Shown: one piece after another, positions 1-9,456 of the stretch
How the letters are laid out: each line of letters begins with the position of its first letter
Position numbering within the stretch: position 1 is the stretch's first letter
From: an alpha proteobacterium 3107
Lineage (GTDB): Bacteria; Pseudomonadota; Alphaproteobacteria; Rhodobacterales; Rhodobacteraceae
Direction of reading: 5' to 3'
Length of the DNA stretch: 9,456 nt
Assembly (NCBI GenBank): GCA_001483205.1
Contig: JPPB01000297.1
Span: 1-9,456, forward strand
Translations under genes and position numbers: made by a program
The notes under the pieces: generated by a model
The model's input: only the letters and a program-made list of their open reading frames with translations
Database searches by the model: none
What the model was told of the DNA's origin: nothing

Positions 1-349
1 GCGTCCCTGCGCCCAGGGTTTGTTGGTAATAGCCGATGGTCGCCCCCGCCGCGACCGACAGGAACAGCGTATCGCCGCCCCCCAGCGGGGCCAGGTGCGG
101 CAGCGCGTCCGGCAGCGCCTGCGGCTTCACGGCAATCAGGACAACGGCGGGCGCGGCGGGCAGTGCCGCATTCAGCCTGACCCCCTGCGCCGCCAGCCGC
201 TGTTGCAGCGCCTCGGGCAGGCCGGGATCCTGCACCTGAACCGCCGCCGCTGGCAGGCCGCGCGACAGCCAGCCCTCCAGCATCGCCGACCCCATCCTGC
301 CGCATCCCAGCAACACCAGACCCCGGCGTTCGATTTCCTCAAATGCCAC
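1..349 (-). CDS. proC: Pyrroline-5-carboxylate reductase ProC, N-terminal part (cut by window edge)
   Basis: ProC reduces 1-pyrroline-5-carboxylate to L-proline with NAD(P)H, the last step of proline synthesis, in the cytoplasm. Only the first 116 residues are present; family members have about 270. What is seen is the Rossmann nucleotide-binding half: a glycine-rich GCGRMGSAMLEGW motif at residues 15-27, LIAVKPQ at 71-77, and SVAAG at 98-102, all typical of ProC. The start is taken as GTG at 349 because an in-frame stop (the same TAG that ends the upstream gene, 404-406) lies 18 codons earlier with no ATG, GTG or TTG in between, and AGGGGG sits about 7 bases upstream as a ribosome binding site. 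It lies 54 bp downstream of the YbjN-domain gene on the same strand, so the two are probably co-transcribed. The function is secure for the family; the downstream half cannot be checked here. Confidence 0.93.
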   Translation of the reverse strand, partial: MAFEEIERRGLVLLGCGRMGSAMLEGWLSRGLPAAAVQVQDPGLPEALQQRLAAQGVRLNAALPAAPAVVLIAVKPQALPDALPHLAPLGGGDTLFLSVAAGATIGYYQQTLGAGT

Positions 350-403
350 AGGATTTCCCCCTTGGCTCCCTTCGGCCCATAGCGACCCCGGCCCGCAACG
401 CCC

Positions 404-907
404 CTAGGCGCGCCCGTAAGCCTCTGCAATCGCCATCTTCATCGCTTCTGTCGCGCTGCTCTTGCCCCAGCCGACAAGCTGAAACGCCGGGTAAAACCGT
501 TCCGAGGCCATCACCGCCGCATTGATCAGCGCCGTGATCTGCTCGGCCCCGGCCATCTGCCCGCCCGCCAGCACCAGACCGTAGCGATAGGTCATCAGGC
601 CATGCTCGGGCCAATAGGTGAACCCGCCCGCCCAGCACAGATCATTGGCGCGGTTCAGGGTGTCGTAAAGCTCCGGCAGGCGATCCTCGGGCGGCCTCAT
701 CTCGAAAGTGCAGATCAGGCGCAGGGTTTCATCCCCCGCTGACCACGCCAGCGTGACCGAATAGGCACACCATCGCCCCTCAACCGCCATCGCAATCTGA
801 TCGTCGGCAACCCGGTCGAACTCCCATTCGTGATGCTCGGCAAGGGTTTCGGCAAGGTCGATCGGGTGCAGATCGTCGGTCTGGATAAACTGCTCTGTAT
901 ATGACAT
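404..907 (-). CDS. YbjN domain-containing protein
   Basis: A 167-residue soluble protein of the YbjN family, whose fold resembles type III secretion chaperones; its biochemical role is not established. Residues about 17-140 carry the features I associate with the family: an acidic N-terminal stretch, alternating strands around RWCAYSVTLAW and ETLRLICTFEM, then a helix with LYDTLNRAND, and a C-terminal YPAFQLVGWG segment before an alanine-rich helix. No signal peptide or membrane segment is seen. The ATG at 907 has AGAGG six bases upstream. It is followed after 54 bp by proC on the same strand; I recall the same pairing from other Rhodobacterales, which supports the call but was not checked. 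Its own promoter should lie in the 370-bp gap upstream, which contains a perfect palindrome about 93 bp before the start codon. Confidence 0.85.
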   Translation of the reverse strand: MSYTEQFIQTDDLHPIDLAETLAEHHEWEFDRVADDQIAMAVEGRWCAYSVTLAWSAGDETLRLICTFEMRPPEDRLPELYDTLNRANDLCWAGGFTYWPEHGLMTYRYGLVLAGGQMAGAEQITALINAAVMASERFYPAFQLVGWGKSSATEAMKMAIAEAYGRA

Positions 908-999
908 GCCCGGCCTCTTTCGCTATAGCTTCAGTCAGGAACCATCCCCCCAAGAACTGGGTGCCCATACTACCGAAGCAGGTTCAACCCGCTTTCTAT

Positions 1000-1011
1000 A
1001 CCATATATGGT
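1000..1011. promoter_or_regulatory. Perfect palindrome ACCATATATGGT, possible operator
   Basis: ACCATATATGGT is its own reverse complement and extends to 16 bases (998-1013) with one mismatched pair. It lies about 93 bp upstream of the YbjN-domain start codon in an AT-rich stretch, which suits a dimeric repressor site or promoter element. I do not recognise it as the FnrL, CtrA or other well-known alphaproteobacterial motif. Chance is possible, since short AT-rich palindromes are common. Confidence 0.35.
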
Positions 1012-1072
1012 GTGGGGAAACGGATGCGCTGTAAAGGGTTTTTTTGATTTATCCCCAACGAAAAGACATCTG

Positions 1073-1086
1073 AAGACCTCTGCATA
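1073..1086 (+). repeat. Solo copy of the AAGACCTCTGCATA repeat end
   Basis: The 14 bases AAGACCTCTGCATA are identical to the left end of the element at 2794-2873 and differ at one position from the left end of the element at 3579-3784. No inverted partner was found nearby, so this is either a remnant or a shared binding site. Three near-identical 14-mers in about 2.5 kb of GC-rich sequence are unlikely to be chance. Confidence 0.55.
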
Positions 1087-1186
1087 TAGTTTGACGCCGT
1101 AAAATTGATCACAGGGTCCAGCCATGATCCGGTCAGGGCGCAATGTCAGAGATTTCGCCGGGACAGGTGCGCGACCCGTCCGAAAG

Positions 1187-1254
1187 GCCGCATCCGACCC
1201 GCACGGGGCGCGAACGCGCCGCCCCGTGGGGGGGCGGGATCAGGACCGGGGTGT
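1187..1254 (+). repeat. GC-rich intergenic repeat, copy A
   Basis: It begins with GCCGCATCCG (1187-1196), identical to 2889-2898, and ends with a 23-base segment (1232-1254) matching 2965-2987 at 20 of 23 positions. Between them is a GC hairpin (stems 1202-1210 and 1220-1228) in the place where copy B has two hairpins. The order of conserved ends is the same in both copies, so they appear to be relatives and not coincidental GC-rich matches. Confidence 0.45.
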
Positions 1255-1277
1255 AAGGCCGAAATGCCGTCGCCTGG

Positions 1278-1667
<390 letters not shown>

Positions 1668-1785
1668 TCAGCCGGTGTCAACCATGCGCAATCGGTGCCG
1701 GGGGATGACGGCTTTTCATCGCCTTCCGGTGCGGGCATAAGGGCGGGGGCGGAACGGACGTGGGGCGAAACCGGCGCAGTGTGGC

Positions 1786-2787
1786 ATGGCGGCAATGGCG
1801 AAAGATGGGGCAGAAAATCTGGCAAAGCGGGTTCTGGCGGGCGAACGCCGGGCGCTGGCGCGCGCCATCACGCTGATCGAAAGCGGGCGCGATGATCACC
1901 GGGCCGGGGCGCTGGCCCTGCTGAAGGCGGTGAACCGGGCCGACCGTCAGGCCCTGCGGATCGGGTTGTCGGGCGCGCCCGGCGTCGGCAAATCCACCTT
2001 TATCGACGCCTTTGGCATGATGCTGGCCGGGCTGGGGCTGAAGGTCGCGGTGCTGGCGGTTGATCCCAGCTCGGCGCGCTCCGGCGGCTCGATCCTCGGC
2101 GACAAGACGCGGATGGACCGCCTGTCGCGCCAGCCCGCTGCGTTCATCCGCCCTTCCCCCAGCCAGAGCCATCTGGGGGGGGTGGCGCGCCGCACACGCG
2201 AGGCCGTCGCGCTGTGCGAGGCGGCGGGCCATGATGTGGTGCTGATCGAGACCGTCGGCGTGGGCCAGTCCGAAACCATGGCGGCAGAGCTGTGCGACAT
2301 CTTTGTTCTGCTGATCGCCCCGGCTGGCGGCGATGAATTGCAGGGCGTCAAGCGCGGGATCATGGAAATCGCCGACCTGATTCTGGTCAACAAGGCCGAT
2401 GGTGATCTGAAAGCCGCCGCTGCCCGAACATGCGCCGATTATGCGGGGGCGCTGCGTCTGATGCGCAAGCGGGCTGAGGATGCGGACGGCTTTCCCAAGG
2501 CGCTGGCAATTTCGGCGCTGGAGGAATCGGGGCTGCAAACGGCCTGGGCGGAAATGAGCGCGCTTGCCGAATGGCGGCGGCGGTCCGGGCATTGGGCGGC
2601 ACGGCGGGCGCGGCAGGCGCGATACTGGTTCGGGGAAGAGGTGCGCCACGGCCTGCTTTTGCGGCTGTCCCGCGATGCGGCGCTTGACGGGATGATGCAG
2701 TCCCTTGGCGATGCGGTTCTTGAGGGGCGCGAGAGCCCCTCGGTTGCGGCGGCGCACCTGCTGGAGCGGTTTGACGGGGGCGGATAG
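1786..2787 (+). CDS. meaB: MeaB, G-protein chaperone of methylmalonyl-CoA mutase
   Basis: A 333-residue SIMIBI-class GTPase. MeaB proteins use GTP hydrolysis to load adenosylcobalamin onto methylmalonyl-CoA mutase (or ethylmalonyl-CoA mutase) and protect it from inactivation, in propionate/ethylmalonyl-CoA metabolism. Visible motifs are the P-loop GAPGVGKST (63-71), the long VDPSSARSGGSILGDKTRM segment (92-110) characteristic of MeaB/ArgK, ETVGVGQSE (155-163, switch II region), NKAD (202-205, guanine recognition) and the SALEESGL loop (243-250). The C-terminal helices (about 255-333) match the dimerisation part. The length is normal. The start is the ATG at 1786; a second ATG at 1795 is equally possible, as neither has a strong ribosome binding site. 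No mutase gene is adjacent, so the partner must be encoded elsewhere. The older name ArgK/LAO transport ATPase refers to the same family. Confidence 0.94.
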   Translation: MAAMAKDGAENLAKRVLAGERRALARAITLIESGRDDHRAGALALLKAVNRADRQALRIGLSGAPGVGKSTFIDAFGMMLAGLGLKVAVLAVDPSSARSGGSILGDKTRMDRLSRQPAAFIRPSPSQSHLGGVARRTREAVALCEAAGHDVVLIETVGVGQSETMAAELCDIFVLLIAPAGGDELQGVKRGIMEIADLILVNKADGDLKAAAARTCADYAGALRLMRKRAEDADGFPKALAISALEESGLQTAWAEMSALAEWRRRSGHWAARRARQARYWFGEEVRHGLLLRLSRDAALDGMMQSLGDAVLEGRESPSVAAAHLLERFDGGG

Positions 2788-2793
2788 GGGAGA

Positions 2794-2873
2794 AAGACCT
2801 CTGCATAAAGGTGTATCGCTCCCCCAATGCCCCGCCCGGCGGAACGCCGGGCAGCGCCATTATGCAGAGGTTT
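2794..2873. repeat. 80-bp MITE/REP-like element with inverted ends (element 1)
   Basis: The ends are a perfect 12-bp inverted repeat, ACCTCTGCATAA at 2797-2808 and its reverse complement at 2860-2871, with weaker similarity extending outward and inward. Inside lies a hairpin, GCCCGGCG (2834-2841), loop GAA, CGCCGGGC (2845-2852), just before the right end. It starts six bases after the meaB stop codon. No target-site duplication is obvious. The right end and hairpin match element 2 at 3579-3784. It is too short to encode a protein; the nested symmetry fits a non-autonomous transposable or REP-type sequence, though it may also act as a bidirectional transcript end. Confidence 0.6.
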
Positions 2874-2888
2874 CGGGAAAGAGGTAAA

Positions 2889-2987
2889 GCCGCATCCGGC
2901 AAGCGGGGGGGCGCGCCACCCCACCCCATTGAGGGGTGACGCGGCGCGGCCCGGTCTTGCGACCGGGCGGGAACAGGGCCGGGGTTT
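2889..2987 (+). repeat. GC-rich intergenic repeat, copy B
   Basis: It contains GCCGCATCCG at the start, a hairpin CACCCC-ATTGA-GGGGTG (2922-2938), a second hairpin GCCCGGTC-TTGC-GACCGGGC (2949-2968) and the conserved tail at 2965-2987 shared with copy A. Its CCCCATTGAGGG core (2924-2935) recurs at 3505-3516 in copy C, and the CCGGCAA and GGGGGG stretches before the core also align, with a 4-base length difference. It lies upstream of rpmB, before the candidate promoter. The two stable hairpins could form in RNA of either strand, but neither is followed by a T run. Confidence 0.5.
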
Positions 2988-3030
2988 GGACTCAAAATCC
3001 GGGCGTGAGGCTATAGGGCGGATGAACCGC

Positions 3031-3059
3031 TTGACGGCGGCGGTGAATGGACATACATC
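3031..3059 (+). promoter_or_regulatory. Candidate housekeeping promoter for rpmB
   Basis: TTGACG at 3031-3036 matches the -35 consensus at five of six positions. Seventeen bases later TACATC (3054-3059) could serve as a weak -10 element, as is usual in alphaproteobacteria. Transcription would start near 3066, giving a leader of about 112 bases that begins just before the hairpin at 3073-3110. The position relative to rpmB is sensible; the -10 match is poor. Confidence 0.4.
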
Positions 3060-3072
3060 ACCGCTCCGGGGC

Positions 3073-3110
3073 GTTTGCGGGCCTGCCCGCGCCACTGGCG
3101 CGCCGCAAAC
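3073..3110 (+). promoter_or_regulatory. Two-part hairpin in the rpmB leader
   Basis: An outer 8-bp stem GTTTGCGG (3073-3080) with CCGCAAAC (3103-3110) encloses an inner stem CGCGCC (3088-3093) with GGCGCG (3097-3102) around an ACT loop, with an unpaired 7-base bulge on the left side only. It lies 67 bases before the rpmB start codon and after the candidate promoter. Ribosomal-protein leaders often bind their own product, but a leader of this kind for L28 is not one I know, so a regulatory role is inference. It has no T run and is not a terminator. Confidence 0.4.
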
Positions 3111-3177
3111 CGACCACCCCCGCCCCCGTGCGCGCGCCCCGCGTATGACACCGTTTAAGAGACGAAGGAACACCCCC

Positions 3178-3468
3178 ATGTCGCGCCGCTGCGAACTGAC
3201 CGGAAAAGGCCCGATGGCGGGCAACAATGTCAGCCACGCCAACAACAGGACCAAGCGGCGCTTTCTGCCGAACCTGAATGATGTGACCCTGCAATCCGAG
3301 ACCCTGGGCCGGGGGTTCCGGCTGCGGATTTCTGCCGCCGCTCTGCGCAGTGTCGATCATCGTGGCGGGCTGGATGGGTTTCTCGCCAAGGCCGGTGATG
3401 ATACCTTGTCGGATAATGCCTTGAGGATAAAGAAAGAAATCCTGAAGGCGCAGGCGTCAGCGCAATAG
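3178..3468 (+). CDS. rpmB: 50S ribosomal protein L28
   Basis: A 96-residue basic protein of the large ribosomal subunit, required for normal subunit assembly. It opens with [22 protein letters not shown], the standard bL28 N-terminus, followed by the [15 protein letters not shown] strand region (residues 24-38) and [21 protein letters not shown] (48-68), all typical of alphaproteobacterial L28; the length is also usual. The ATG at 3178 has AAGGA eight bases upstream. A much longer open frame continues upstream through the leader but is not conserved protein. The gene is alone: meaB ends 390 bp before it and the next gene is convergent. A candidate promoter and leader hairpin lie upstream, and a terminator-like hairpin follows at 3611. 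L28 is often paired with L33 or L31 genes; neither is seen here. Confidence 0.97.
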
Positions 3469-3480
3469 GCGGCACCCGTC

Positions 3481-3530
3481 CCGGCAAAGGGGGGATGCGC
3501 GCTGCCCCATTGAGGGACGAACGGGCGGAA
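3481..3530 (+). repeat. GC-rich intergenic repeat, copy C (shorter)
   Basis: This stretch just after rpmB repeats the order CCGGCAA, a run of G, GCGCGC, CCCCATTGAGGG (3505-3516) and GGGCGGAAC found in copy B upstream of the gene. The core dodecamer is identical; the hairpin around it is weaker here because the closing bases differ (GGGA in place of GGGG). rpmB is therefore bracketed by two direct copies of this repeat. Confidence 0.4.
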
Positions 3531-3578
3531 CCATATGATGGCGCAGCTTGGGTCGTTTCTGCTTGGGGGGCTGCTCCC

Positions 3579-3784
3579 AAGACCTCTGAATATTGACCAA
3601 GCCGGGCAACCGCCTGCCTGGGCAGGCGCTTTTCCTGATATTCCACACCGGCGATGGTCTTGCCATAAAGCCTATACACTGCAACAGGCTGAGATGTTTT
3701 AAGCGCCTGCCGGGGGGCAGGCAGGCGCTGCCCGGCGCAAGCGCCGGGCGGACGGTTTGGCAGCCGATCCGCCATTATGCAAAG
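3579..3784. repeat. About 206-bp MITE/REP-like element (element 2)
   Basis: The left end, AAGACCTCTGAATA, differs at one base from element 1. The right end, CGCCATTATGCAAAG (3770-3784), matches element 1 at 14 of 15 positions. As in element 1, a GC hairpin lies before the right end: GCCCGGCGC, AA, GCGCCGGGC (3730-3749). Two further hairpins use the same arms, CGCCTGCC and GGCAGGCG, at 3611-3628 and again at 3703-3728. No protein is encoded. It fills most of the gap between the convergent genes rpmB and the DUF6476-like gene, and may supply their transcript ends. Confidence 0.5.
3611..3633 (+). terminator. Rho-independent terminator candidate downstream of rpmB
   Basis: CGCCTGCC (3611-3618) pairs with GGCAGGCG (3621-3628) and is followed by CTTTT (3629-3633). 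The two-base loop means the inner pairs probably open to a six-base loop with a 6-bp stem. It is 142 bp beyond the rpmB stop, inside repeat element 2. The T run is short, so termination may be partial. Confidence 0.5.
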
Positions 3785-3818
3785 CAAAAGCACCGCCTGC
3801 CCGTCCCACCGCGGTTCA

Positions 3819-4163
3819 TCACTCGCCGCCGGTGGTGATCTGAAGCCGCTGACGCAGCGCCCCGCTCTGCCGGTCAAAGATCAGGATTTCGTCCGCCCCG
3901 GTCACCACCCCATACCATCCGGGCGCGACGGTAAAGGCGGTGGCCTCGGTTCCCTCCGGCAGGGTGATCATATCGGGCAGGCCCCGCAGTCCCGACATCC
4001 CCGCCCCCCCCGGCGATTGCAGGCGGATGACAAGCAGCACCACCACCGTTACAACCCCCAGAATCATCACCGCCGTCAACACGCCCACCAGACGGCGCAG
4101 AAACAGGATCGTTCCGGGCAGGGAGGCCCGCATGTCGGGATCGGGATCAGAATCGTCTTGCAT
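3819..4163 (-). CDS. Single-pass membrane protein, DUF6476-like
   Basis: A 114-residue protein of unknown function. An acidic N-terminus ([10 protein letters not shown]) is followed by a basic FLRRL and one strongly hydrophobic segment at about 25-47 ([20 protein letters not shown]), then a periplasmic-looking domain with [19 protein letters not shown] and [11 protein letters not shown]. This arrangement is that of the small membrane proteins annotated as DUF6476 in Rhodobacterales. The positive charges before the segment predict the N-terminus inside and the C-terminal domain outside. The ATG at 4163 has AAGGG eight bases upstream. A longer frame to 4631 runs antisense through the pseudouridine synthase and is rejected. 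It faces the RluA-family gene head to head, with start regions touching or overlapping, and converges on rpmB. The family name comes from recall of layout and context. Confidence 0.8.
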
Positions 4164-5226
4164 CGGGCAGCCCTTGTCGGTTCTGCGGGTCACGATCAGC
4201 GCGAACCCGCCCAACCGCCTTGATAAGGCGCTCGCCCGCGATACGCCAGAGCAGGCATCGCTCAGCCGTTCGCGTCTGGCCCGGCTGATCCGGGCGGGAA
4301 GCGTGTCGCGCGACGGGCAGGCCATGACCGACCCCGGCGCACGGGTCGCCACCGGTGACATTCTGACCATCGACATACCGCAGGTCAGCGACATCCCGGT
4401 GGCCCCCGAAGCAATCCCGCTGGCGGTCCGGTATGAGGATGACCACCTGATCGTGATCGACAAGCCTGCGGGCATGGTCGTGCATCCGGCCCCCGGCGCG
4501 CCCTCGGGCACGCTGGTCAATGCGCTGCTGGCCCATTGCGGTGACCGCCTGTCGGGCATCAACGGGCAGAGGCGGCCCGGTATCGTGCATCGGATTGACA
4601 AGGACACATCGGGCCTGCTGGTCGTCGCCAAATCGGACTGCGCCCATCACGGCCTGGCCCGGCAGTTCGCGGCGCATACGGTCAGCCGCCATTACCGCGC
4701 GGTGGTGTATGGCGCGCCGGACGGGGCCGATCCGCGCCTGTGCGGGACGCCCGGCCTGAGCTTTGAGGCCGGGGGGGTGATGTGTATCGCCACCGGGATC
4801 GCCCGCCACCGGCATGACCGGCAACGGCAGGCGGTGGTGCTTTCCGGCGGGCGGCGGGCGGTGACGCGGGCGCGGGTGGTGGAGCGGTTCGGGGCAGAGC
4901 CGGGCGCGGCGGCGGTGCTCGATTGCTGGCTGGAAACCGGGCGGACGCACCAGATTCGGGTGCATATGGCCCATGCCGGGCATGGTCTGATCGGTGATCC
5001 GCTCTATGGCGGCAGGCGGAGCCTTGCCCGGCGCGCGATCAGTGCGGCGGGGGCCGGGGCCGCGCGCGCCTTTCCCCGGCAGGCGCTGCACGCCGCCACT
5101 CTGGGGTTCGTTCACCCGACAAGCGGCGAGGCGATGCGGTTTGCGGCGTCCCTGCCCGGGGACATGTCGGCGCTTATCGAGGCGCTGCGGGGGGGCGGCC
5201 CCGGCCCGGATCGGGCGGGTCGATAG
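4132..5226 (+). CDS. RluA-family 23S rRNA pseudouridine synthase (RluD-like)
   Basis: It isomerises uridine to pseudouridine in RNA. An S4-type RNA-binding region (about 28-85) precedes the catalytic domain, an order shared with RluC and RluD. Motifs seen: [11 protein letters not shown] (109-119); [15 protein letters not shown] (153-167), whose Asp156 is the catalytic aspartate of the family; [14 protein letters not shown] (267-280) followed by GDPLYG (288-293); and [11 protein letters not shown] (319-329). The exact target is not readable; RluD-type modification of helix 69 is an inference. The start is uncertain. ATG 4132 has GGGAGG five bases upstream, giving 364 residues, but it overlaps the divergent DUF6476-like gene by 32 bp. 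TTG 4174 gives 350 residues beginning nearer the conserved part and avoids the overlap, but lacks a good ribosome binding site. rpoH follows on the same strand after 372 bp. Confidence 0.93.
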
Positions 5227-5248
5227 TGTCTTGATCCATAACCCGGAT

Positions 5249-5277
5249 TTGACAGGTCGCTCCATCGCCTCTATTTC
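5249..5277 (+). promoter_or_regulatory. Candidate promoter upstream of rpoH
   Basis: A perfect TTGACA (5249-5254) is separated by 17 bases from TATTTC (5272-5277), which matches only the first three positions of the -10 consensus. The same stretch also fits the alphaproteobacterial sigma-32 pattern CTTG-N17/18-CYTATNT loosely: TTTG at 5248-5251, then TCTATTT at 5270-5276. A site read by both sigma factors would suit rpoH, but the transcript leader would be over 300 bases. It might instead serve the doubtful ORF at 5332. Confidence 0.4.
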
Positions 5278-5331
5278 CTGCGTGTTCCAAGCGCCTGACG
5301 CAGGCACCACCCCATATCAGAGGGTCCGAAT

Positions 5332-5544
5332 TTGCTGCACGACTTACTGGAATATTGGAAAACAACGGCTTTGGCTGGCGACACGTTTCACCCGGACGAC
5401 CGGGATGCAATACGCCCATACCAACATAACCTGCCTGAAGGGCGCATTCCTGAACCTTGGTTCGGCATTCCATCTGACCTGCCCCCTTGCCCAAAACCTG
5501 CCACCACCCGCTTCACCCTTGAAATCCCCCGCCCGCGCCTTTAG
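5332..5544 (+). CDS. Doubtful 70-residue ORF, possible gene remnant
   Basis: This ORF begins with TTG (5332) preceded by AGAGGG at a reasonable distance and runs 70 codons to a TAG. It occupies most of the 372-bp gap between the RluA-family gene and rpoH. Its first 45 residues look protein-like, with LLEYWKTT, FHPDDRDAIRPYQH and IPEPWFG, whereas the tail is proline-rich and low in complexity. Third codon positions are much less GC-biased than in the neighbours. I do not recognise it with confidence. The N-terminal part loosely recalls the start of uncharacterised proteins with an LPEPF/WFG motif, which would make this a broken 5' fragment. It could equally be non-coding rpoH leader. No other gene is visible between 5227 and 5598. 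Confidence 0.25.
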   Translation: MLHDLLEYWKTTALAGDTFHPDDRDAIRPYQHNLPEGRIPEPWFGIPSDLPPCPKPATTRFTLEIPRPRL

Positions 5545-5598
5545 GTCAGGCCCGTCCGGGCACCACCCCCTCACGGCGCACAGTCGGAAACCGAACCC

Positions 5599-6495
5599 AT
5601 GAGCAACTATTCCAACCTCCCCGCCCCGTCGCCGGAGCAGGGACTGAACCGCTATCTTCAGGAAATCCGCAAATTCCCCCTGCTGGAGCCGGAAGAGGAA
5701 TACATGCTGGCCAAGCGCTGGGCCGACCATCAGGATTCCGGGGCCGCGCACAAGATGGTCACCAGCCACCTGCGGCTGGCGGCCAAGATCGCCATGGGCT
5801 ATCGCGGCTATGGCCTGCCCCAGGCCGAGGTCATTTCCGAGGCGAATGTCGGCCTGATGCAGGCGGTGAAACGCTTTGACCCCGAGCGGGGCTTTCGGCT
5901 CGCCACCTACGCGATGTGGTGGATTCGCGCCGCAATTCAGGAATATATCCTGCGGTCGTGGTCGCTGGTCAAGCTGGGCACCACATCGGCGCAGAAAAAA
6001 CTGTTTTTCAACCTGCGCAAGGCCAAGGCGCGGATCGGGGCGCTGGATGAGGGCGACCTGCGGCCAGAGGCGGTCAGCCGGATCGCCCATGACCTGAACG
6101 TGACCGAGCAGGATGTCATCTCGATGAACCGCCGCCTGTCGGGGGGGGATGCGTCGCTGAATGTCACCATCGGGGCCGATGGCGAGGGGGCGATGCAGTG
6201 GCAGGACTGGCTGGAGGACGAAAGCGCGGATCAGGCCGGGGATTACGAAGCAGAGGATGAGCTTGCGGTGCGGCGCGCGCTGCTGGCCGAGGCGATGGAG
6301 GTGCTGAATGAGCGGGAACGGGACATCCTGACCTGCCGCCGTCTGACCGAACAGCCGATGACGCTGGAAGAGTTGTCCGGCCGGTTCGGGGTCAGCCGCG
6401 AGCGTATTCGCCAGATCGAGGTCCGTGCCTTTGAGAAGCTGCAACAGCGGATGCGGGAGCTGGCCCGTGACAAGGGGTTGCTGGGGGGCCGGTGA
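5599..6495 (+). CDS. rpoH: Heat-shock sigma factor RpoH (sigma-32)
   Basis: A 298-residue sigma-70-family factor that directs RNA polymerase to heat-shock and stress promoters. Region 2 covers about 50-122, with LRLAAKIAMGYRGYGLPQAEVISE and the promoter-melting stretch ATYAMWWIRAAIQEYILRS. The RpoH box QKKLFFNLR (132-140), which separates sigma-32 from other sigma factors, is intact. Region 4 with its helix-turn-helix is at about 235-285 (LNERERDIL, then TLEELSGRFGVSRERIRQIEVRAFEKL). The length is normal and no truncation is seen. The ATG at 5599 has only a weak GGAA upstream, which may point to translational control. Many Rhodobacterales carry two rpoH genes; the MSNYSNLPAPSPEQGLNRYL opening resembles the RpoHI type, but I cannot settle this from one copy. 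It follows the RluA-family gene after 372 bp and probably has its own promoter. Confidence 0.96.
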   Translation: MSNYSNLPAPSPEQGLNRYLQEIRKFPLLEPEEEYMLAKRWADHQDSGAAHKMVTSHLRLAAKIAMGYRGYGLPQAEVISEANVGLMQAVKRFDPERGFRLATYAMWWIRAAIQEYILRSWSLVKLGTTSAQKKLFFNLRKAKARIGALDEGDLRPEAVSRIAHDLNVTEQDVISMNRRLSGGDASLNVTIGADGEGAMQWQDWLEDESADQAGDYEAEDELAVRRALLAEAMEVLNERERDILTCRRLTEQPMTLEELSGRFGVSRERIRQIEVRAFEKLQQRMRELARDKGLLGGR

Positions 6496-6522
6496 GGGGC
6501 GGGTTTGGGCTGCGAGCGGTGC

Positions 6523-6543
6523 AACACACCTAAATGTTGTGTT
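6523..6543. promoter_or_regulatory. Inverted repeat upstream of the hicBA-like pair
   Basis: AACACA (6523-6528) and TGTGTT (6538-6543) form an inverted repeat with a 9-base spacer. It lies 14 bp before the candidate -35 box, a common place for an operator or activator site. Toxin-antitoxin operons are usually autoregulated by binding to inverted repeats near the promoter, so this is a reasonable candidate. It might also be a weak transcript end for rpoH, which stops 28 bp earlier. Confidence 0.35.
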
Positions 6544-6556
6544 CCTATCGGTCTGC

Positions 6557-6585
6557 TTGCATTTTGAAATGAATAGCATTACATT
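6557..6585 (+). promoter_or_regulatory. Candidate promoter of the hicBA-like pair
   Basis: TTGCAT (6557-6562), a 17-base spacer and TACATT (6580-6585) form a promoter-like pair in an AT-rich stretch that contrasts with the flanks. Transcription would start near 6592, about 23 bases before the first start codon. Direct repeats of CATT-type sequence overlap it (GAAATGAATAGCATT, ACATTTTCATT) and could be part of an operator. Confidence 0.45.
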
Positions 6586-6614
6586 TTCATTGGAATCACG
6601 GTCAAGAGGGTAGC

Positions 6615-6941
6615 ATGTCAAAGGTCATCACTATCCAAGCGAATGTAAGGTGGCGCGCCGAACGTGGCGAGAACCCGGAGCGCTGGGTCGGCTTTTGTGA
6701 TGAACTCGGAATCACAACCGAGGCCGGGTCGCTGGACGAGCTTCACTCGCTGATTCCAGAGGCCATAAGTATCCTTCTGGCTGATCTTCTGGAAGACAAT
6801 GAGCTTGACACATTCCTCAGTGTGAGAGGATGGGAATCTTCGGAGAAAACGGATATGCGGGCATCCCATCCCTCTGAAGTTCATATCCCGTGGCACTTAA
6901 TTTACGAGGCGCAAAATGATCCAAAGAGAGCATTTGCTTAA
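6615..6941 (+). CDS. HicB-like / DUF1902-like protein, putative antitoxin
   Basis: A 108-residue protein with the partial RNase-H-like pattern of HicB antitoxins and DUF1902 proteins: a strand (VITIQANVRW, 4-13), then WVGFCDELGITTEAGSLDEL (24-43), then the helix HSLIPEAISILLADLLEDN (44-62). The usual 'WVA.S.DLPGL.TEA.TLEEL' signature is recognisable. No N- or C-terminal helix-turn-helix or ribbon-helix-helix is evident; the last 40 residues (FLSVRGW to EVHIPWHLIYEAQ) are unfamiliar and may contact the partner. GAGGG sits five bases before ATG 6615. The next gene overlaps its 3' end by 26 bp, so the two are translationally coupled. By analogy it would neutralise the second protein. GC content is visibly lower than in rpoH and pgi, suggesting acquisition by transfer. 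Confidence 0.7.
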   Translation: MSKVITIQANVRWRAERGENPERWVGFCDELGITTEAGSLDELHSLIPEAISILLADLLEDNELDTFLSVRGWESSEKTDMRASHPSEVHIPWHLIYEAQNDPKRAFA

Positions 6942-7146
6942 GGCGATCCGGAAAAAAGGATATATGTTCAAGCGGCAAACCGAAAGAATCGAACTTTACA
7001 GGCTGAAGGGCGGCACGGATTGCGTTCAACTGCGAAAAATCGCCCTTCACGATAACAAGGCGGCGAAGGCCATTTTGAAAGACGCCGGATACAGCGATTC
7101 AGAGATTGAAGATTTTATTGCCGAATGCAATACAAACACCCATTGA
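6916..7146 (+). CDS. HicA-like small protein, putative toxin lacking the catalytic histidine
   Basis: A 76-residue basic protein. The order helix (REHLLKAIRKKGYMFKRQ, 4-21), strands (IELYRLKGG, TDCVQLRKIALH), helix (KAAKAILKDAGYSDSEIEDFI, 48-68) matches HicA, a small mRNA interferase with a double-stranded-RNA-binding fold. RQTERIELYR (20-29) aligns base for base with the HicA stretch RQKGSHHIYR, but the catalytic histidine position is Ile25 (or Glu26). His45 is the only internal histidine besides His6. The protein may therefore be inactive, may use another residue, or may act in some other way. The start at 6916 has GAGG six bases upstream and lies 26 bp inside the preceding gene. Partner order (antitoxin-like first, toxin-like second) is the reverse of classical hicAB but is known. 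The assignment is by pattern only and could be wrong. Confidence 0.62.
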   Translation: MIQREHLLKAIRKKGYMFKRQTERIELYRLKGGTDCVQLRKIALHDNKAAKAILKDAGYSDSEIEDFIAECNTNTH

Positions 7147-7231
7147 AACAACCCCCAGCATAACAGCGCATCAACGGTCAAATTGCCCGCTCAGGCGCTT
7201 GCATAACGCACACAGCAGCACCATACGCCCC

Positions 7232-8824
7232 TCACCGCCCCCGGCAGGCCTGCACAAACTCAAGCAACAGGCGGGTTGAGCCGTCCTTATGACCGGCGGG
7301 GTGGTCCGCTGAAACCAGCGGCTCCATGTCACGGGCCAGTGCCTTGCCCAACTCCACCCCCCACTGGTCAAACGAATTGATCCCCAACAGCGCCCCCTCA
7401 ACAAACACCCGGTGCTCGTAAAGCGCGATGATCTGCCCCAGCGCATACGGGGTCAGTTTCGGATAAACCAGCGTCGTCGAGGGCCGGTTGCCGGGAAAGG
7501 CCCGGTGGCGCGCCTGTCTCCCGGCGGCCTCTCCCCCGGCCATCCCCCCGGCAGAAGGGTCGCGCCCCAGCATCAACGCCTCTGACTGCGCCAGACAATT
7601 CGCGACCAACAACCGGTGGTGATGGTCGAGCGCCGCCTCATGCCCCTCTGCGGCGACCAGAAACTCGCACGGGATGATCCGGGTGCCCTGATGGATAAGC
7701 TGATAAAAGGCGTGCTGTCCGTTGGTGCCCGGCTCTCCCCACACCACCGGGCCGGACGGAACCGGCAGAGGCCCGCCATCCATCGCAACCCCCTTGCCGT
7801 TCGATTCCATCTCCAGTTGTTGCAGATAGGCGGGCAGGCGCGCAAGGCGCTGATCATATGGCAGCACGGCGCGGGTCGCATAGCCGCAGCCCTGATTGTG
7901 CCATATCCCGACCAGCGCCAGCACGACCGGCATATTTTCCGCCAACGGCGCGGTGCGGAAATGCCGGTCCATCGCCTCGGCACCGCCAAGGAACGCGCCG
8001 AAATCCTCTGCCCCCACCGCGATCATCAGCGACAGACCAACCGGCCCCCACACGGAATAGCGCCCCCCGACCCAATCGCCGAAGCCAAAGACACGCCCCG
8101 GCGCGATGCCGAAGGCGGCGGCGCGCTCTCCGGCGGCAGAGATGGCGGCGAACTGCGCCCCCGGCTCCCCCACCCCGGCGGCCATCCACGCACGGGCGGC
8201 CTCAGCGTTGGTCATCGTCTCGACCGTGGTGAAGGTTTTGGACGCAACGATGATCAGCGTCGTTTCGGGCACCAGCCCCGAAAGCGTGTCGTGAATATCC
8301 GCCCCGTCCACATTCGAGACGAAATGACAGCGCGGACCGTCGTGACAGGGGGCGAGCGCCCGCACCGCCATGGCCGGGCCGAGATCGGAACCGCCGATGC
8401 CGATATTGACCACATCGGTGATCCGCCCCCCCTGTCCGGTGAAACGTCCGGCCCTGACATCCCCGGCAAAGCGGCGCATATGTTCAAGGGTGGCCCGGAC
8501 ACCGGGCATGACATCGCGGCCATCCAGCATGACCGGCCCGCCATTCAGATTGCGCAGCGCCGTATGCAGGACGGCCCGGTTCTCGGTCTGATTGATCCGC
8601 GCGCCGGAAAACATCGCCTCCCGCTGCGCCTCCAGCCCCGATGCCGCCGCCATGTCCACAAGCACGCCGAATGTCGTATCGTCGATACTGGTCTTGGAGA
8701 AGTCGAGCAGCAGATCACCGGCGCGAACCGAAAATTTCCGTGCCCGCTCTGTGTCCCTGAAAAGATTGGCGATGCGGCGGTCTTTGGCCAGGGTGGCCAG
8801 ACGGCGGAGCCGGTCCCACTCCAT
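7232..8824 (-). CDS. pgi: Glucose-6-phosphate isomerase
   Basis: A 530-residue enzyme interconverting glucose 6-phosphate and fructose 6-phosphate in the cytoplasm. Both family signatures are intact: [17 protein letters not shown] (248-264) and [18 protein letters not shown] (477-494). Substrate-binding parts are also visible: [11 protein letters not shown] (140-150) and [13 protein letters not shown] (195-207), which bind the phosphate; LEMESNGK (337-344) with the catalytic glutamate (340); NGQHAFYQ (368-375) with the catalytic histidine (371); and Lys494. The length is a little short of E. coli Pgi (549) but usual for alphaproteobacteria. ATG 8824 is preferred; TTG 8839 or GTG 8830 would add five or two residues and overlap pgl. 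Only two bases separate the pgl stop from this start, so translation is probably coupled. With pgl and presumably zwf upstream, it recycles fructose 6-phosphate into the oxidative/Entner-Doudoroff route. Confidence 0.97.
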
Positions 8825-8826
8825 GA

Positions 8827-9456
8827 TCACGCCGCCCAATGCACGGAAATGTCGTCAAGCAGCGCAGAGACCGGCGCAAGCTCCGGGTCGTTCAGCCGCC
8901 GCGCCTGATGCAGGGCCGCGCGCTTACCTGCCCCCAGAATCAGCAGATGGGCGTTTATGGCCCCTTTCAGCGCCGGTATCGTCAGGCTGATACGCGCTTC
9001 CGCTGTGCCGGGGGGGTGCTGAGCCGACAGGATCGGGGCGCGGGGACTGATCGCCGCCCGCAATCCCGGTGCGCCCGGAAACAGCGACGCGGTGTGCATG
9101 TCGTCCCCCATCCCCAGCAACAGAATGTCAATCGGCAGCAGCGGCCCGATGCCACGGGCCAGGTCCGGCAGGGCATCCTCGGGGGTTTCCGCCGGGATAT
9201 AGAGTGGCACGAGCCGGGCCTTCGCCGCCCGGTTCGTCAGCAACCTCTGCCGCACCAGCCGGGTGTTGGACCGCGTGTCACCCTCTGCCACCCAGCGCTC
9301 ATCGGTCAGCATGACATCCACCCGCTCCCACTCCAGGTCTGCCGCCGAGAGCACATCGAATAACGGCCCCGGCGTCGTGCCGCCGGGAACGGCAAGGGTG
9401 GCCCGCGCCTTGTGGGTCAGCGCCGCGCTCAGCTCTTCGGCCAGGGTCGCCGCCAG
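8827..9456 (-). CDS. pgl: 6-phosphogluconolactonase, N-terminus cut by window edge
   Basis: The enzyme hydrolyses 6-phosphogluconolactone to 6-phosphogluconate, the second step of the oxidative pentose phosphate and Entner-Doudoroff pathways. The frame is open to the window edge and gives 209 residues; bacterial Pgl proteins of this type have about 220-240, so only the first few are missing. Family motifs seen, counted from the edge: [15 protein letters not shown] (23-37), the phosphate-binding turn; TDERWV with [11 protein letters not shown] (51-73); and [14 protein letters not shown] (115-128), the counterpart of the [14 protein letters not shown] motif with His121. The change of Gly to Met before the histidine leaves the catalytic His in place. 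A shorter frame beginning with GTG at 9354 is rejected because it drops the conserved PGGTTP motif. It is followed by pgi after two bases; zwf is expected upstream but is outside the window. Confidence 0.95.

Follow-up and report, generated by a model that had tools for sequence, protein, structure and literature searches.

A hicBA-type gene pair whose HicA-like member lacks the active-site histidine in an alphaproteobacterium

Results

The stretch of DNA analysed here (the window) comprises the 9,456 nucleotides of contig JPPB01000297.1, positions 1 to 9,456, from the alpha proteobacterium 3107 (Rhodobacteraceae; assembly GCA_001483205.1), and carries on its forward strand two overlapping small genes that we call HB and HA. 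HB (6615..6941) encodes a HicB/DUF1902-like protein of 108 amino acids, a predicted antitoxin recognized from its open reading frame (ORF), 15 homologues, profile alignment and structure matches. HA (6916..7146) encodes a HicA-like protein of 76 amino acids, the predicted effector, recognized from its ORF, profile alignment to HicA and a low-confidence structural model. The two coding sequences share 26 nucleotides (6916..6941), in a register that is constant across all loci read. Shine-Dalgarno-like motifs were read directly ahead of both genes, AGAGGG before HB (6605..6610) and GAGG before HA (6906..6909), the latter within the HB coding sequence; GAGG or GGAG is also present upstream of HA at the other intact loci (L002, L004 and L005) and in two broken copies in genome G911. 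The HB-internal motif suggests that translation of HA may be coupled to that of HB.

As the initial annotation of this DNA had stated, the pair lies between rpoH (5599-6495; TIGR02392, 365.9 bits against a cut-off of 323.1) and pgi (7232-8839, minus strand, named by NCBIfam), and it is lower in GC than its flanks. The pair has a GC content of 49.6% and the remainder of the window 65.7%; among 394 further stretches of 532 nucleotides, none falls this low. At the three other intact loci, the corresponding values are 51.8 and 67.3%, 51.1 and 59.2%, and 51.1 and 66.7%. The promoter that the same annotation had assigned to the pair was not recovered by a consensus scan of 6300-7400, which was limited to the sigma-70 type.

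In the alignments, HA residues 23-26 (E-R-I-E; 6982..6993) stand opposite the HicA motif G-S-H-H, and the initial placing of Ile25 and Glu26 opposite the HicA histidine held against both 12 ordinary and 7 DUF1902-linked HicAs. The Gly-Ser-His turn of HicA is [EQK]-Arg-[IVT] in 5 of 5 HA rows, and Asp-Arg-Ile in the truncated G911 copies. Both the glycine and the histidine of the turn are therefore replaced in HA, which does not carry the Gly-x-His pattern of HicA. No homologue among those read has a histidine at the aligned position: it is absent from all of them, in five genomes counting that of the broken G911 copies, so that, on the sequences compared, lack of the histidine characterizes the HA branch, as the initial annotation had proposed to check. 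According to the mutant data cited from one study of HicA (PMC3969222), G22C and H24A abolish toxicity and S23A does not, and a second histidine, at residue 40, lies spatially near His24 in many HicAs; the review text cited here (PMC11594946) assigns the histidine a catalytic or important role in further HicAs.

Fifteen HA residues are invariant in the five rows: M1, L7, R12, Y16, K19, Q21, R24 and G32, and further along H45, A50, L54, G58, E63, I64 and F67. In a weak AlphaFold2 (AF2) model, K19, Q21 and R24 fall within or beside the beta1-beta2 turn and His45 (7048..7050) at the predicted beta3-alpha2 junction, so the modelled end of the fold that matches the HicA site would retain invariant polar residues of other kinds. 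We infer that the invariant Arg24 and His45 may replace the lost histidine. These residues also bear on a different explanation, which we consider possible though on the doubtful side, namely that HA derives from HicA and binds RNA non-catalytically, the HB-HA complex regulating RNA or HA blocking translation by binding, with HB controlling HA. Such a role would fit the replacement, in 5 of 5 HA rows, of the glycine and histidine that are both needed for toxicity in one HicA, together with the basic charge (net +3 to +9) and the HicA profile similarity that HA has kept. The persistence of an invariant arginine and an invariant histidine at both active-site loops speaks against it, and the sporadic spread of the pair over different loci, described below, would be expected of a toxin-antitoxin module more than of a housekeeping regulator.

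The kinship of HA with HicA emerges from profile alignments. HA has no match above cut-off in Pfam or NCBIfam, and the window copy gave none to PF07927 (HicA_toxin) at E up to 10; weak PF07927 matches were obtained for 2 of the 5 HA sequences (best E 0.071), without reaching the gathering cut-off. When the five-sequence HA profile was aligned with 12 ordinary HicAs using hhalign, however, a probability of 95.2 was obtained over 64 columns, with a score of 42.6 against a maximum of 16.9 over 300 column-shuffles, and with either of two HicA sets, which have one sequence in common, the score lay far beyond about 300 shuffles. The ordinary set (A4) consists of 12 of the 22 PF07927 matches above cut-off, chosen by eye and used as domain pieces; it excludes the GSR types L015, L025, L027 and L030, L026 (which contains a stop) and L016, L017, L018, L028 and L031. 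Its member L024 and L034 of the DUF1902-linked set are one and the same protein; the latter set contains seven sequences and omits L033, whose HicA ORF ends early.

The AF2 model, computed from an alignment of three sequences (L004 and L005 left out), has the order alpha-beta-beta-beta-alpha plus an extra C-terminal helix, at low confidence (predicted local distance difference test 61.6; predicted template modelling score 0.43). Its best Foldseek match is a HicA (6g26_F), at a weak E of 0.56, and the order of its elements fits HicA. The HicA-like layout initially read from HA was borne out by the profile alignments to the two HicA sets. That HA is instead unrelated to HicA, a small alpha-beta protein that happens to adjoin a HicB-like gene, would accord with its lack of Pfam or NCBIfam matches above cut-off and with the weak structure matches; we consider this improbable given the distance of the profile score from the shuffles and a partner that is HicB-like and stands in the order known from DUF1902-linked hicBA pairs. 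An unrelated pair with a similar fold, one of the options first left standing, is now unlikely for the same reason of profile homology, and no other family was found for HA by Pfam, NCBIfam or PADLOC, the last of which returned no match.

Several other low-scoring matches of HA were taken as chance: MerR (NF010315, 13.8 bits against a cut-off of 261), DUF5333, RepB_primase_C and other Pfam lines (E 0.0067 or worse), and phrog_33605, of unknown function (E 0.002, residues 48-75 only). A weak match to phrog_353, labelled 'toxin', covers residues 2-59 (E 0.11). Sequence matches in the PDB to the HA profile start at E 0.0067 and are to designed or seemingly unrelated proteins.

For HB, the DUF1902-like pattern noted at the outset lies under the Pfam threshold (PF08972; 16.1 bits for the window copy, gathering cut-off 22), and DUF1902 matches at E up to 10 were obtained for 8 of the 16 family members, the best at E 0.0006. 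The pattern is upheld by profile comparison, in which the HB profile aligned with the DUF1902 profile at a probability of 93.6 and a score of 42.8 (maximum of 300 column-shuffles, 21.8). The DUF1902 set represents nine of ten loci (L035, very like L032, was omitted); several members were cut back to an inner start (and L042 at its end as well), and L032 is without a start. The solved structures closest to the HB model are 1wv8, 3k6q, 2yzt, 2dsy and 6g1c, among which are known HicB antitoxins. A DNA-binding domain, already found wanting in the initial annotation, was detected neither by Pfam nor in the secondary structure of the AF2 model. The C-terminal 40 residues, initially described as unfamiliar, show no more than partial conservation within the family, with W73, P92 and R105 invariant or nearly so and residues 75-88 variable. 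Residues 45-50 (SLIPEA; 6747..6764) are invariant in the 16-sequence alignment A1, and this stretch is altered in the intact HB of L005. HB is acidic (net charge -10 to -15). Its best PHROG match is phrog_3448 (E 0.041), and PDB sequence matches to its profile, at E 0.15 and worse, are to designed or seemingly unrelated proteins.

The pair is rare. Among 5.8 billion database proteins, HB had 15 matches, including the near-identical P0002 and one homologue whose original label reads 'predicted RNase H-like HicB family nuclease', and a word search with HA returned only the near-identical P0001 and P0017, the L002 copy. Genomes were scanned for HB with alignment A1 and for HA with alignment A3; for many genomes only part of the first-look candidates were scored, and absences hold to that depth. 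In the GTDB collection, the A1 scan found one more locus (L002, in a metagenome-assembled genome of Paracoccaceae); elsewhere it found 4 genomes out of 385 in the class (including that of the window), 2 out of 11 in the order of G125 (both already known), and the window alone among 101 relatives and among 398 genomes of the phylum. The A3 scan of a class draw with the same size, tallies and handles found HA in exactly the 3 genomes out of 385 that hold a full-length HB; the pair is intact in these 3 of the 385 genomes sampled from the window's class. Of 295 genomes of the window's own family, 2 yielded HA, the window's and G911. Searches of plasmid records (tblastn with P0011 and window HA), of phage records (tblastn with L002 HA; HB itself was not searched in phages) and of IMG/VR (HB and HA alignments) gave no match.

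The pair is intact at four loci: the window, L002 (HB 3427-3756, HA 3731-3961), L004 (HB 1501-1830, HA 1805-2029) and L005 (HB 1480-1821, HA 1796-2029). The 26-nucleotide overlap is found at all four and in both G911 copies. HA starts with ATG in the window, L002 and G911, and with GTG in L004 and L005, where the start was chosen by homology and the relative frame of HB and HA is independent of that choice; the stop in the G125 match is HA's own terminal stop codon (L004, 2027-2029). The flanking genes are unlike at all four intact loci, rpoH and pgi being only one of the contexts, and a tRNA-Arg is the neighbour at one other. Judged by eye, the other neighbours are what we take to be a sensor kinase-like gene (beside the tRNA-Arg), an IS-type transposase-like gene and an arginyltransferase-like gene. 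With differing neighbours and a constant overlapping register, HB and HA seem to travel as a unit.

Both genes appear to be under coding constraint. Between the window and L002, identity at codon positions 1, 2 and 3 is 0.79, 0.82 and 0.39 for HA (67 codons) and 0.70, 0.78 and 0.47 for HB (99 codons), the overlap excluded, and position 3 is the least conserved in 6 of 6 pairwise comparisons for each gene. Since positions 1 and 2 are conserved above position 3, HA, like HB, looks like a maintained protein. This bears directly on the proposal that HA is an inactivated HicA in decay, which chance has kept next to its antitoxin gene, in keeping with the lost active-site motif and with the truncated copies in G911. 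We regard such decay as very improbable, because codon-position conservation has held over deep divergence, and because intact frames at four loci with the same type of replacement in all of them point to selection. The common absence of the histidine, together with this conservation, likewise agrees poorly with the idea of a merely mutated copy.

G911 holds two copies on a 491-bp segment, 99.2% identical (L045, reverse complement of 1252-1742; L046, 1252-1742), at different places in the one genome. In each, HB is shortened and HA truncated; the family resemblance of HA ends past residue 25, and HB has lost the SLIPEA stretch. Such joint decay, with the effector lost and its partner damaged, is the pattern expected of a toxin-antitoxin relation, here in one case only. 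At L006 (genome G235, about 1501-1596), the fourth HB match of the class scan, an HB remnant covering residues 4-33 breaks off, and HA is not detectable.

As for the surroundings of the window pair, pgi was absent within 1.5 kb downstream of rpoH at 15 of 15 loci examined in same-family genomes (10 loci of other families were left out, and one weak 47-residue pgl-like match at L056, 7e-4, was disregarded). The rpoH-pgi junction is thus not common to same-family genomes, and no empty insertion site can be read from them. Elsewhere in the window, a 167-residue ORF on the minus strand (407-907) has no NCBIfam match at E 0.001.

Discussion

Profile homology to both families, co-occurrence, a fixed overlap register, coding constraint and the absence of the histidine from all homologues read form the basis for interpreting this locus. 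The best reading of these sequences is a rare hicBA-type pair, in which a non-canonical HicA-like effector would be accompanied by HB as its likely inhibitor, and the interpretation first given to the pair is supported overall, with HA placed beside HicA and all homologues read lacking the histidine. Our favoured explanation, which we hold at about even chances, is that the two genes form an overlapping hicBA-type pair that is inherited together, with a HicA-like member devoid of the glycine and the histidine, and likely a toxin-antitoxin module, the toxicity of HA being only a prediction.

It is plausible to suggest that in such a module HB would be made first and HA in proportion to it, through translational coupling at the HB-internal GAGG. 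The acidic HB would then bind the basic HA across the two-loop end of the fold and mask the altered site through which an action of HA on RNA is predicted. RNA contact or cleavage would fall to Arg24 (beta1-beta2 turn) and His45 (beta3-alpha2 junction). The bolder form of this proposal, that HA stands at the root of a toxin branch derived from HicA, with an active site rebuilt around Arg24 and His45 under a co-evolved HicB-like inhibitor, is put forward as a tentative and rather unlikely possibility.

The conserved histidine is the residue on which the explanation of HicA chemistry rests. A maintained branch without it, accompanied by a HicB-like partner, would mean one of two things: the HicA fold has another way of being toxic, or the family has non-catalytic, RNA-binding members. 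If the rebuilt site is real, HA would exemplify active-site migration in nature, within a very small RNA-targeting fold. As HA falls under the Pfam and NCBIfam cut-offs and is not matched by PADLOC, it would escape surveys of defence and toxin-antitoxin systems that use these libraries.

Among known systems, no HicA branch without the histidine is described in any title or abstract opening listed by searches of an open-licence library, and the main text of Gerdes 2024 (PMC10865869) does not contain the word histidine. The sections of that work cited here describe Class 2 hicBA modules, with small HicBs that lack a DNA-binding domain, and DUF1902 genes beside hicA. The present pair resembles Class 2 in having hicB first, overlapping genes (order and overlap at 4 of 4 intact loci), a small HicB without a DNA-binding domain and an HA of 74-77 amino acids, inside the range of 60-85 reported there for HicA; it differs in the length of HB, 108-113 amino acids at the four intact loci against a reported 63-103 codons, and in lacking the Gly-Ser-His turn. 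It is also like DUF1902-linked hicBA pairs in gene order and in the similarity of HB to DUF1902, and a HicA-like gene lies directly downstream at 8 of the 10 DUF1902 loci fetched. These HicAs have the histidine in 8 of 8 cases (GSH or GDH in seven, a shorter GKH turn in L043), where HA has [EQK]-R-[IVT]; past the active-site position, their H-E-x-W and the I-E-L-Y of window HA share the glutamate and an aromatic residue.

PF07927 matches above cut-off in 41 genomes numbered 22, of which 18 have the histidine and 4 (L015, L025, L027 and L030) have GSR. As compared here, the GSR types are a second HicA-related group without the histidine; they resemble HA in this respect but keep Gly-Ser, with arginine at the histidine position, whereas HA also lacks the glycine. 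HA itself was not assigned to the GSR type, the hhalign probability being 3.7 over 16 columns only. The window's own genome (G000) has an ordinary GSHH HicA on another contig, C5 (L009). With the Burkholderia HicA, as far as the cited parts of PMC3969222 describe it, HA shares the predicted order of secondary structure and the presence of conserved residues in the beta1-beta2 and beta3-alpha2 loops, but the Gly22 and His24 that this toxin needs are both replaced in HA, the first by Glu, Gln or Lys and the second by Ile, Val or Thr.
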